In this document: in pieces, positions 48,461 to 63,154 of the stretch
How the letters are laid out: each line of letters opens with the position of its first letter
How positions within the stretch are numbered: position 1 is the stretch's first letter
DNA from: Sneathiella chinensis
GTDB lineage: Bacteria > Pseudomonadota > Alphaproteobacteria > Sneathiellales > Sneathiellaceae
Assembly: GCF_012720115.1 (NCBI RefSeq)
Contig: NZ_VNWN01000006.1
Coordinates: forward strand, 124,001 to 188,000
Direction: 5' to 3'
DNA length: 64,000 bases
Notes under the pieces: model-generated
Told to the model about the DNA's origin: nothing
The model's input: the letters and a program-made list of their open reading frames with translations, nothing else
Database searches by the model: none
Translations under genes and position numbers: made by a program

Positions 48461-48489
48461 ATTTTAAACTTACCTGACCAAATGGTCAA
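48461..48489 (-). promoter_or_regulatory. Predicted rutR promoter
   Basis: On the minus strand TTGACC (48484-48489), 17-base spacer and TAAAAT (48461-48466). The -35 box is part of the RutR palindrome, so bound repressor would block polymerase. Confidence 0.7.
48474..48489. promoter_or_regulatory. RutR operator 1
   Basis: CTGACCAAATGGTCAA matches the E. coli RutR consensus TTGACCA-N2-TGGTCAA in all but one of its fixed positions. It overlaps the -35 of the rutR promoter. Confidence 0.8.
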
Positions 48490-49141
48490 TTCTTGCAGAA
48501 AGCGAATATATCAGGATCTTAATGGACCATTCAGGCGAATAAAATAAGATCAAAACAGAACGCGGAAAGTGCCCCTTAGAATTGAAAGGGGCATTACTTC
48601 GCCAATCCGGTCCTAAAAAGCCAGAAAACCTGTGTATAAAATTAGTAAAAAATAATATTATAATGTGAATTTTATTTAGATTTACTCTTATTCGTTGAAA
48701 TATATTGCATTTTTCACACATATCGATTTTCTTTATAAGAACATAAAGTGAACATATGGACGAAAGTGAGGCCCCCTATGAAATTCAGGCTAGTAAATTC
48801 AGGGCCTCTTTTATCCCTTCGTTGTGATTTTTCGCCCTTAAAATCAGGGTGCCCCTTTCCACGGACGGGGAGATGATGGGCAGGGGCCATCTGTACCGTT
48901 ATTGGTACAAATCATGAACATTTTTTGGGGCGAAAACCGGCAAAAAGGGGATCAGGCGGGAAGGTAATCATACGGGGGAGGGTCAATTTTGCGTGATATT
49001 TTTCTGATTAAGGATTCGCTTTATAATGGCATTTTATGCCGGGACGCGGGTTTCTTATCTGGCGGTTTGGTGGATTGGGGCCGCTTGGCAGGCTATGGGA
49101 ATGGCACTTTTTCAGGGGGTTGAGTTAATATTCGAAAAAAC
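48490..49141. other. Long AT-rich non-coding region between rutR and preT
   Basis: About 650 bases with no convincing coding frame. Visible structures are a stem-loop TGCCCCTT/AAGGGGCA (48570-48593), and GAGGCCC/GGGCCTC (48768-48774 with 48802-48808) followed by TTTTAT, whose 27-base loop contains a direct repeat AAATTCAGG (48781-48789 and 48796-48804). TATAAT at 49022-49027 may be a -10 box. A small RNA or a long leader cannot be excluded. Confidence 0.5.
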
Positions 49142-49157
49142 TTGACCGTTTGGTCAG
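49142..49157. promoter_or_regulatory. RutR operator 2, upstream of preT
   Basis: TTGACCGTTTGGTCAG, again the RutR-type palindrome with one change in each arm, 52 bases before the preT ATG. Possible promoter boxes overlap it: TTGGTC with TATTAA at 18 bases, or TTGACT (49161) with TATCAA at 18 bases; I cannot decide between them. Confidence 0.8.
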
Positions 49158-49209
49158 ATTTTGACTACCTTCATATTAACAAAATATCAAATTCGGCCAT
49201 GAGCCGATC

Positions 49210-50586
49210 ATGTCTAACTGGGCTGGGGAAAGAAAGATGGGTGATATCGCAGGTATCGCGGCGGGACGTTTGTCCGTCGACGAGCTGTCGAAGAATTTCG
49301 ACGACATGTATCCGGCACTGGATTCCAAAACCGCCGGGATCGAGGCAAGCAGGTGTTACTTCTGTTATGACGCTCCCTGTATGGAAGCCTGCCCCACGGG
49401 GATTGATATCCCGAACTTCATTCGCAAGATCCAGACCGGCAATTACCGGGGATCGGCACTGGACATCCTGACAGAGAATATCATGGGCGGGGCCTGTGCG
49501 CGGGTGTGCCCGACGGAAATCCTGTGTGAGGAGGCTTGCGTTCGCACCGCGCAGGAAGACAGGCCCGTCACCATCGGCCGCTTGCAACGCTTTTCCACTG
49601 ACTGGTTGATGGAAACGGGGGAGCAGCCGTTCGAGCGGGCCGCGCCAACGGGCAAGACCGTTGCTGTGGTGGGGGCTGGGCCGGCCGGACTTGCCGCCGC
49701 CCACCGGCTGTCCATGCTGGGGCACGAGGTTGAGGTTTGCGAGGCCCGCCAGAAGGCCGGGGGCCTGAATGAATACGGGATTGCCGCCTATAAGGTGCCC
49801 CACGATTTCGCCCAACAGGAAGTGGATTTCATTCTCGGCCTTGGGGGGATCACGGTTCATTACGGTCAGGCCTTGGGGCAAGAGGTGACACTGGCCGGGT
49901 TGCGGGATCGCTATGATGCGGTTTTCCTTGGGCTTGGCCTTGGGGCTGTGCGGGCGCTTGGTCTTGCCGATGAACAGGTTGAAGGGGTTTATAACGCGGT
50001 CGATTACATCGCTGCCCTGCGCCAGTCGGATACCAAGGCCGATATCCCGGTAGGCCGCAAGGTTGTGGTGATTGGGGGCGGCAATACGGCAGTGGATATC
50101 GCGGTCCAGACAAAGCGACTGGGGGCGGAGGATGTGACGCTGGTATATCGGCGCGGCGCCGACGCCATGAGCGCCACCCCCCATGAACAGCATTATGCCC
50201 AGACTAACGGGGTGAAAATCAAGCATTGGGCCAAGCCGGCCTCGTTGCAGGTTGCCGGGGGTGTCGTGACCGGGGTCGGGTTCGAATATACCGAACTGGA
50301 CCCGGACGGGCGTCTGATCGGAACCGGCGAGACTTTCACCCTTGAAGCGAACATGGTGTTCAAGGCCATTGGACAGGTTTTCATCCCGGACCCGGTGACG
50401 GAAAGCGCCGCCTGCCTTGAACTGGCGGAGGGGCGCATCGCCGTCGGGGACGGCGGGGCAACCTCCATCCCCGGTGTTTTCGCCGGGGGGGACTGCGTCT
50501 CCGGGGGCGAGGATCTGACCGTTGCCGCCGTTCAGGATGGCAAGCTGGCGGCCCATGCCATCAACGATTATCTGGCGAACCGATAA
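49210..50586 (+). CDS. preT: NAD-dependent dihydropyrimidine dehydrogenase, electron-transfer subunit PreT
   Basis: 458 residues. The N-terminal domain has two Cys quartets for [4Fe-4S] clusters (Cys 49, 52, 57, 61 and 96, 100, 106, 110). FAD binding is shown by TVAVVGAGPAGLAAAHRL and NAD binding by VVIGGGNTAVDIAVQ. With PreA it reduces uracil and thymine to the 5,6-dihydro forms, the first step of the reductive pathway. It resembles the glutamate synthase small subunit, but the preA neighbour settles the role. An ATG at 49237 has a better GGGGAAAG upstream and may be the true start. Gap to preA 13 bases. Confidence 0.93.
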   Translation: MSNWAGERKMGDIAGIAAGRLSVDELSKNFDDMYPALDSKTAGIEASRCYFCYDAPCMEACPTGIDIPNFIRKIQTGNYRGSALDILTENIMGGACARVCPTEILCEEACVRTAQEDRPVTIGRLQRFSTDWLMETGEQPFERAAPTGKTVAVVGAGPAGLAAAHRLSMLGHEVEVCEARQKAGGLNEYGIAAYKVPHDFAQQEVDFILGLGGITVHYGQALGQEVTLAGLRDRYDAVFLGLGLGAVRALGLADEQVEGVYNAVDYIAALRQSDTKADIPVGRKVVVIGGGNTAVDIAVQTKRLGAEDVTLVYRRGADAMSATPHEQHYAQTNGVKIKHWAKPASLQVAGGVVTGVGFEYTELDPDGRLIGTGETFTLEANMVFKAIGQVFIPDPVTESAACLELAEGRIAVGDGGATSIPGVFAGGDCVSGGEDLTVAAVQDGKLAAHAINDYLANR

Positions 50587-50599
50587 GGGGGAGAGCAGA

Positions 50600-61520: not shown

Positions 61521-61533
61521 AGTAAGAAGGGAC

Positions 61534-62991
61534 TTACTCAGCGGCCATGGGCGGCCGTTTCACGCTCTTCGGTTTGGTAAGTTCCCTTCGGATTTTCAAG
61601 GCATCGAAATGGGTGTTGAATGTGGGGCGCTTGATATAGCGGCCCGCGCCTTTCACCACATTGAGCTGGCCGTCCTTATAGACAACCTTGCCCTGACTGA
61701 TGGTGTGGCTTGGGCTGCCCTTGACTTCCATGCCCTCAAAAATGTTGAAATCGATATTCTGGTGATGGGTCTTGGCGGAAATGGTGCGGGTCATTTCCGG
61801 GTCCCACACAACGATATCCGCATCCGCCCCCACACTGATGGACCCTTTGCGGGGATGGATGTTGAAAATCTGCGCCGCATTGGTCGAGGTCACCTTGACG
61901 AATTCATTCAGGGTCAGCTTGCCCTGATTGACGCCGTGATGCCACAGGACGGCCATGCGATCCTCAACCCCGGATGTGCCGTTGGGGATTTTGGTGAAAT
62001 CGTCCCGCCCGGCGGCCTTTTGCGGGGCGCAGAAACAGCAATGGTCTGTGGCAGTGGTTTGCAGGTTGCCCGATTGCAGGCCACGCCACAATTCACGCTG
62101 GTGATCCTTGGGCCGGAAGGGCGGGCTCATCACATGGGCGGCGGCATACTCGAAATCCTCGTTGTAATAGACGCTGTCGTCAATCAGCAGATGCCCGGCC
62201 AGCACCTCGCCAAAGACCCGCTGACCTTCAAGGCGGGCACGGGTGACGGCCTCAAGGGATTCCTTGCAGGAGACATGAACGATATAAAGCGGTGTTTGCA
62301 GGACCTGCGCGGTTCGGATGGCCCGGTTGGCGGCCTCACCCTCCACCTCTGGCGGGCGGGACTGGGGATGGCCTTCCGGACCGGTGATACCGTTTTTCAG
62401 CATTTCCTGCTGAAGATAATAGACCATCTCGCCATTTTCCGCGTGGACGGTGGCCATGGCCCCCAGTTCACGGCAGCGGTGGAAGCTGGCCATCATCATT
62501 TCGTCGGACACCATGATGGCATTCTTGTAGGCCATGAAATGCTTGAAGGAATTGACCCCTTCCTGTTTCGTCAGGATTCCCATATCGCGGGAGACGGTTT
62601 CATCCCACCATGTGACGGCCACATGAAAGCTGTAGTCCGATACGGATTTTTCCGCCCAACCCCGCCATTTGTGGTAGGCATCCATCAGCGGTTCCTCGGG
62701 ATCGGGAATGACGAAGTCGATGATCTGGGTGGTGCCCCCGGCAAGGGCCGCCGCCGTGCCGGTATAGAAATCCTCGGTTGCGACGGTGCCCATGAAGGGA
62801 AGCTGCATATGGGTGTGGGGGTCAATCCCGCCGGGCATCACATATTGTCCGCCGGCATCAACAATTTCAGCACCTGACGGGGCCTCTAGGTTTTCGCCGA
62901 TGGCCTTGATCACGCCATCCTCGCAATAGATGTCGCTGCGAAATGTGGTTTCTGATGTGACGACGGTACCGCCGCGAATAAGGATCGACAT
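61534..62991 (-). CDS. hydA: Dihydropyrimidinase (D-hydantoinase)
   Basis: 485 residues from the ATG at 62991, preceded by AGGAGGT at 4 bases; a GTG two codons earlier is possible. Cyclic amidohydrolase fold with metal ligands in [15 protein letters not shown], the carboxylated Lys in [14 protein letters not shown], His in [10 protein letters not shown] and [14 protein letters not shown], and the substrate Asp/His near TATDHCCFC. It opens dihydrouracil/dihydrothymine to N-carbamoyl-beta-alanine/-aminoisobutyrate, the step after PreTA. Divergent from the nitrilase gene; they share a regulatory region with a RutR box. Confidence 0.95.
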
Positions 62992-63108
62992 TCCCACCTC
63001 CTGTTCGTTGTAATCGCGTTGTCCGGTTCGGCTGTCCGGTTGTGTGTCCGGTGCGTTTTTCCGGGTCTGTTCCCTTCTTTGGAGAACATGATATTTTTCT
63101 ATTTTAAC

Positions 63109-63137
63109 TTTGCCTTTTGAAAAAGGATAGATAAAAT
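63109..63137 (+). promoter_or_regulatory. Predicted promoter of the nitrilase-type beta-ureidopropionase gene
   Basis: TTTGCC (63109-63114), 17-base spacer, TAAAAT (63132-63137). The RutR box begins one base after the -10, over the start site. Confidence 0.6.
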
Positions 63138-63138
63138 C

Positions 63139-63154
63139 CTGACCAAATGGTCAA
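63139..63154. promoter_or_regulatory. RutR operator 3, between hydA and the nitrilase gene
   Basis: CTGACCAAATGGTCAA, identical to the site upstream of rutR. It lies 41 bases before the nitrilase ATG and 147 bases upstream of hydA, so it could control both. Confidence 0.8.

Follow-up and report, generated by a model that had tools for sequence, protein, structure and literature searches.

Which genes does a RutR-like regulator control in Sneathiella chinensis, and how far does its regulon extend? The question arises from a 64,000-nucleotide stretch of contig NZ_VNWN01000006.1 (assembly GCF_012720115.1, positions 124,001 to 188,000 of the forward strand; hereafter the window), in which an initial annotation made from the sequence alone had linked three palindromes to genes for reductive pyrimidine breakdown, placing them upstream of rutR, upstream of preT, and in the divergent region between hydA and a nitrilase gene. 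Our analysis makes it very probable that a uracil- or thymine-sensitive RutR/PydR-like repressor controls the reductive pathway composed of PreTA, dihydropyrimidinase, and carbamoylase. The regulator gene and its putative operators are located as follows, with positions counted from the first letter of the window.

47706..48389, minus strand: rutR/pydR-like TetR-family regulator of 227 amino acids, identified by structure matches, Pfam, and NCBIfam
48474-48489, no strand assigned: putative palindromic operator upstream of rutR, CTGACCAAATGGTCAA, 1 mismatch to TTGACCANNTGGTCAA
49142-49157, no strand assigned: putative palindromic operator upstream of preT, TTGACCGTTTGGTCAG, 2 mismatches to TTGACCANNTGGTCAA
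63139-63154, no strand assigned: putative palindromic operator between the divergent hydA and nitrilase genes, CTGACCAAATGGTCAA, 1 mismatch to TTGACCANNTGGTCAA

The three palindromes are present letter for letter as had been claimed, those at 48474 and 63139 being identical, and the claimed match to the RutR consensus TTGACCANNTGGTCAA holds for all of them. Allowing up to 3 mismatches, the window contains 13 matches to this consensus, compared with 2.77 +/- 1.59 in shuffled sequences, among which the largest count was 8 and 13 was reached in 0 of 100 shuffles. Lowering the limit to 2 mismatches leaves five matches, namely the three named sites and two others, at 19058 and 44956, that fall within open frames, the former reading as cheA-like. 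When these two open-frame matches are taken as the background density in the window, a rough Poisson estimate gives p = 5.5e-6 for three matches within the approximately 1.0 kb of the two intergenic regions. The spacing is specific as well, with TGACC-N4-GGTCA occurring five times in the window and each of the other spacers from N2 to N10 occurring zero to two times. The palindromes are non-random and look functional. Their promoter context is a different matter. Sigma-70 boxes are weak evidence here, because a promoter scan returned 10 sigma-70-like matches where 9.0 are expected, and the proposal that two of the sites overlap good boxes stands for 48474 only, where the minus-strand TTGACC inside the palindrome serves as the -35 element of a promoter-like match. 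The 63139 palindrome, by contrast, nearly abuts a promoter-like match whose -10 element ends at 63137, one base short of it, and no match from the scan touches the palindrome at 49142.

The regulator itself finds its best matches among solved structures in Escherichia coli RutR (E 8.8e-41), and its Pfam architecture comprises TetR_N (52.7 bits, cut-off 24) followed by TetR_C_3 (167 bits, cut-off 25). According to excerpts of PMC10891134, uracil is contacted in E. coli RutR by W77, Y97, W167, Q171, and Q179′, and DNA by the lysines K52 and K62. The corresponding positions of the window protein, which lie in a gapless part of the alignment at an offset of one, are W76, Y96, W166, Q170, Q178, K51, and K61, and all seven residues are identical to those of E. 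coli. When the window protein is aligned with 18 of its 28 relative matches, which share 44 to 81% identity with it, five of these positions (K51, K61, W76, W166, and Q170) never vary, and the other two, Y96 and Q178, show conservation of at least 90%. Within its own genome the regulator has no close paralogue, the next match scoring 24 bits.

Conservation of the sites was assessed across 24 genomes of the genus, own genome included in this and the following counts, of which 18 carry rutR (in two pieces in genome G016), 15 carry hydA, and 12 carry preT. The E-value limits for these presence patterns were 1e-20, 1e-100, and 1e-150. All 12 genomes with preT have a site of at most 2 mismatches before that gene, at -60 to -70 as aligned, and all 15 with hydA have one in the hydA/nitrilase region, at -103 to -163. 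For rutR, 12 of the 18 genomes have such a site no more than 125 bases away. These rutR-site counts overlap with the preT-site counts and are not independent evidence, because in eight congeners (G001, G002, G005, G009, G017, G020, G021, and G022) a single exact-core site at the rutR locus is common to both genes. Two genomes, G004 (-91) and G011 (-90), possess a second, tandem operator before preT in place of the single one of the window genome; the G011 pair is found at L172:6083-6122, 24 bases apart. The regulator and the enzymes also co-occur. Among genomes at least 90% complete, both preT and hydA are present in 10 of the 12 with rutR, compared with preT or hydA in 0 of the 5 that have no rutR match (G003, G008, G013, G015, and G019), which gives a Fisher p of 0.0034 over these 17 genomes, uncorrected for species kinship. 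The exceptions are G014 (L169) and G023 (L170), where preT and hydA matches are absent and rutR adjoins the amidase gene; a site that departs from the consensus by 2 or 1 mismatches lies in the interval. G012 (L171), a genome of 70% completeness (G014 is 100% complete), likewise has rutR beside the amidase and no preT or hydA match.

The genes that would be governed by these operators are the following.

49210..50586, plus strand: preT, NAD(P)H-dependent subunit of dihydropyrimidine dehydrogenase, adjoining preA and matching glutamate-synthase-small-subunit-like models
50594..51874, plus strand: preA, dihydropyrimidine dehydrogenase subunit (NF006183 PreA, 715.9 bits, cut-off 335)
51885..53120, plus strand: "amaB", Zn-dependent hydantoinase/carbamoylase-family amidase by NCBIfam models, candidate beta-ureidopropionase
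53224..54054, plus strand: ATP-binding cassette (ABC) transporter ATP-binding protein by profile models, kept in the cluster elsewhere
54029..54964, plus strand: ABC permease 1 by profile models, kept in the cluster elsewhere
54961..56094, plus strand: ABC permease 2 by profile models, kept in the cluster elsewhere
56191..57186, plus strand: NMT1/THI5-like substrate-binding protein of a candidate pyrimidine-type importer (PF09084, 137.5 bits)
61534..62991, minus strand: hydA, dihydropyrimidinase (TIGR02033, 609 bits, cut-off 393)
63197..64000 and past the window end, plus strand: carbon-nitrogen hydrolase of the nitrilase family, candidate beta-ureidopropionase (PF00795, 222 bits)

This is the gene set of the reductive Pyd/Pre pathway, in which PreA and the dihydropyrimidinase exceed their model cut-offs and the third step has two candidates. 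The amidase scores 437 bits against TIGR01879 (cut-off 204) and 700 bits against NF006769 (cut-off 452); for the nitrilase-family hydrolase the best NCBIfam model is AguB, at 252 bits, under its cut-off of 410. These two candidates, the carbamoylase at 51885-53120 and the nitrilase-family protein at 63197-64000, are unrelated and stand under one operator type. PreT matches no NCBIfam model above its cut-off among the 25 matches listed. Its translation may in fact begin at the ATG at 49237; congener PreT proteins align from residue 5-13. A seven-gene operon starting at preT is plausible: the 103 bases that separate the amidase gene from the ABC ATPase gene yielded no terminator-like call on the plus strand, and the hairpin 3′ of the NMT1 gene (57215-57242) is a minus-strand call.

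From the sites, their conservation, the genes, and the conserved contact residues, all of which are observed directly, we infer dimerization, binding, repression, ligand, and operon structure, which together suggest the following mechanism. A dimeric RutR/PydR-like TetR repressor would bind the 16-bp palindromes in the rutR-preT and hydA-nitrilase intergenic regions and, when bound, would block RNA polymerase at its own promoter and at those of the preT-preA-amaB-ABC transporter operon, hydA, and the nitrilase gene. Entry of uracil (or thymine) into the ligand pocket would then take the repressor off the DNA, and its release would permit production of the reductive pathway enzymes and the importer.

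The initial annotation had described the pyrimidine locus as split by a 9-kb insertion of sorAB and ECF genes that carries no operator. The absence of sites is borne out, there being none with 3 or fewer mismatches between 49158 and 63138, but the inserted part appears to be about 3.5 kb rather than 9 kb once the ABC transporter is counted with the cluster. In four congeners whose cluster was followed from end to end (L172 to L175), the order is rutR, preT, preA, amidase, ABC genes, nmt1, and then hydA/nitrilase, with no sorA match in the cluster of any of them. Pelagibius (L091), a Kiloniellaceae genome (L097), and Oceanibacterium (L110) are among the other genomes in which the transporter adjoins these genes. 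By this comparison the NMT1-type ABC transporter at 53224-57186 is native to the cluster, and the locus is not split in the manner proposed. As far as the four congeners show, the genome-peculiar part consists of the sorAB-like and ECF pairs, from 57468 to 60898, which look inserted. From preT to hydA the cluster spans 13.8 kb here; where one contig carries both genes, as in 10 congeners, the span is 10.0 to 12.2 kb. The distance from rutR to preT is some 4.4 kb in G011 and 1.3 kb in G018. Within the peculiar part, a sulfite-dehydrogenase-like gene follows the NMT1 gene and matches the SorA, SorT, and SoxC models, all below cut-off; the SorB-like cytochrome next to this sorA-like gene also scores below its model cut-off. 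The minus strand encodes an ECF sigma factor (Pfam) together with a neighbour that is read as an anti-sigma factor and for which a Pfam match is absent. One further gene has 0 to 3 relatives in the cluster of the four congeners.

60711-61457, strand not stated: small protein, family match absent in Pfam and NCBIfam searches

A scan of the whole 3.55-Mb genome with the motif, which the initial annotation had proposed as a check, finds the core TGACCRNNYGGTCA 11 times, versus 3 times for the reversed control. Judged from the surrounding open reading frames, seven of the 11 sites are intergenic, comprising the three in the window and four elsewhere. The other four are in open frames, the one at C12:576808 in a frame without assignment. 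An operator role was rejected for the exact-core sites at 19058, 44956, C17:5349 (purL-like), C17:26912, and C18:180164, among others, as they are within open frames. Three of the intergenic sites outside the window precede binding-protein genes.

C14:168654, intergenic TGACCRNNYGGTCA (BMP1 site): before a gene for a BMP-family binding protein, followed by ABC ATPase and permease genes
C12:830210, intergenic TGACCRNNYGGTCA (BMP2 site): before a gene for a BMP-family binding protein, with an ATPase and two permeases
C14:52385, intergenic TGACCRNNYGGTCA: before a gene for a family-5 (peptide/nickel type) binding protein

The two unlinked BMP-family ABC importers are probably under the control of the same regulator too, and this would widen the regulon to uptake. 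Of 11 genomes with the BMP2 gene, 10 have its site with at most 2 mismatches; in G018, the remaining one, the site has 3. The BMP1 site is present at the same threshold in 15 of 22 genomes and in 14 of the 17 among them that have rutR; in G007, which has rutR, it carries 3 mismatches, and the corresponding position carries 3 in G008 and 4 in G019, both of them lacking a rutR match. No BMP1 match was found in G010 or G013. Setting these 14 of 17 against the near-complete genomes that have no rutR, where 1 of 4 keeps the site, and leaving out G006 (66% complete, rutR match absent, best site 4 mismatches), gives a Fisher p of 0.053, which is suggestive only. Both BMP proteins match PF02608, PnrA-like (225 and 129 bits), a family that suggests nucleosides as candidate substrates; their nearest NCBIfam model, a putative B6 transporter, is far under cut-off. 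It is somewhat likelier than its opposite that the genus regulon is wider than the enzyme cluster, such that rutR outlived preTA and hydA in G014 and G023, which keep amaB and the importers, and that the BMP1 operator tends to decay where the regulator is missing (G008, G019). The peptide/nickel-type importer at C14:52385 was not accepted as a firm member of the regulon, its site being found in its own genome only (1 of 7): in six congener orthologues no site of 4 or fewer mismatches is among the best two within 400 bases. Read on the opposite strand, the C14:52385 site has the sequence shared by the window sites at 48474 and 63139. One more intergenic core site, ATGACCAAATGGTCAC at C12:646163-646178 (L010:5164-5179), lies between genes read as those of a DeoR-type regulator and a flavin adenine dinucleotide (FAD)-dependent oxidoreductase, and could be another regulator's.

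A view beyond the genus is provided by the best 80 of 587 confirmed RutR-like loci from a contig scan, some of which are from Sneathiellales. Neighbour counts in these loci are lower bounds, because many of them have short flanks. The fetched flank includes preT or preA in at least 16 of the 80 loci, any of preT, preA, hydA, or the amidase in at least 18, and an NMT1 gene in at least 16. A BMP-type binding protein (16) or a similar ATPase alone (12, possibly from other ABC systems) is encoded in at least 28, and 27 of the 80 have none of the neighbour types considered. An operator of at most 2 mismatches is found upstream of preT in 10 of the 16 loci with preT or preA. At least 6 of the 80 have a GTP-cyclohydrolase-II gene near the rutR-like gene (PRK07198 in L112), a kind of gene found in the URC uracil pathway. 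The loci in question are L105, L112, L115, L119, and L120, all from Cupriavidus, and L096; L112 also has uracil phosphoribosyltransferase, and the five Cupriavidus loci have a BMP-type importer too. Regulators of this family seem to accompany more than one uracil pathway. In Kiloniella and Stappia (L143:9875-10700 and L149:9865-10639), two adjacent RutR-like genes occur with two operators before the first, and these paralogues may divide control of pyrimidine genes between them.

Several observations weigh against control of the reductive pathway by a RutR-type repressor in the form set out above. The regulator falls under both NCBIfam RutR equivalog cut-offs (TIGR03613, 191 bits versus 368; NF011584, 164 versus 230), a difference from E. 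coli RutR because of which we call it RutR/PydR-like and not a RutR equivalog. At rutR, the site is only some 300 bases away in G005 and G009, has 3 mismatches at best in G004 and G012, and is absent within 400 bases in G007 and G018; a separate rutR-side site is seen only in the window genome, which has two sites, and in G011. In G014 and G023 rutR persists although neither preT nor hydA has a match, the BMP1 site is lost in G017 and G021 despite rutR, and G015, which lacks rutR, keeps it. Beyond the genus, 6 of the 16 loci with preT or preA have no site of at most 2 mismatches before preT. The proposed autoregulation is probable in the window genome, but it is not universal in the genus, because G018 and G007 are without a site and those of G005, G009, G004, and G012 are distant or weak, and a separate rutR site is not general when eight congeners share one with preT.

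Other explanations of the locus can be set against the same evidence. The regulator might bind these sites but sense a molecule other than uracil, such as dihydrouracil, N-carbamoyl-beta-alanine, or a hydantoin, with the cluster serving hydantoin or purine-ring breakdown instead of that of uracil. Strong matches of hydantoinase/carbamoylase and allantoate-type models would fit such a function, as would the retention of rutR beside amaB in G014 and G023, but the PreA equivalog score far above cut-off and the conservation of all five reported uracil contacts argue otherwise, and we regard this alternative as quite improbable. It is scarcely credible that the palindromes arose by chance or belong to another TetR-family regulator, and that the neighbouring pyrimidine genes are coincidental: although some exact core sites do lie inside unrelated genes (the cheA-like frame at 19058 and the purL-like frame at C17:5349), the sites are kept at nearly fixed distance in every genus genome that has preT or hydA, and the genome has no close paralogue of the regulator. 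A regulator acting mainly as an activator, or as a co-regulator under nitrogen control such that uracil alone does not induce, seems unlikely, as two of the three operators overlap or nearly abut promoter-like boxes, an arrangement that suits a repressor, though such boxes are no commoner than in shuffles. We thus retain a uracil- or thymine-responsive repressor of the reductive pathway as the best explanation.

How does this regulon compare with known systems? A RutR-like protein, PydR, is described as repressing the dihydropyrimidine dehydrogenase gene of the reductive pathway in Pseudomonas putida (Hidese et al., 2012, cited in PMC7332683). The locus here resembles that system, going by the title of that study, in placing a RutR-like regulator on the dihydropyrimidine dehydrogenase gene of the reductive pathway, although P. 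putida belongs to another class of bacteria. E. coli RutR, with which the window protein shares the operator consensus (as stated in the initial annotation) and the uracil and DNA contact residues within a TetR_N and TetR_C_3 architecture, is described as controlling the rut operon and carAB (PMC10891134 among the sources), whereas the linked targets in the window are preTA, hydA, amaB, and the transporter. RegPrecise describes RutR regulons of pyrimidine catabolism for 68 genomes in 13 proteobacterial groups, with a mean of 10.9 target genes (Leyn et al., 2016; PMC5343134), predicted from the same kind of evidence as is used here. Among the papers listed in literature searches none deals with RutR in this genus, which is no proof of absence.

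Taken as a whole, the initial annotation is partly supported. Sequence evidence backs the RutR-like regulator, the RutR-type operators, the targets in the reductive pathway, and probable autoregulation; it does not back the 9-kb split or a separate rutR site as a rule. The novelty implied by the contrast with E. coli is weak, because PydR, a RutR-like regulator of the reductive pathway, has already been reported. With PydR of P. putida and the RutR regulons of Leyn et al. (2016) published, the central idea is known, and the contribution of this locus is a further, well supported case with probable importers. General knowledge of RutR-like regulators is unchanged by this regulon, which offers, for a Sneathiella-type genus, a tight and testable set of genes for pyrimidine use and a starting point for identifying the substrates of two BMP-family importers and one NMT1-type importer.

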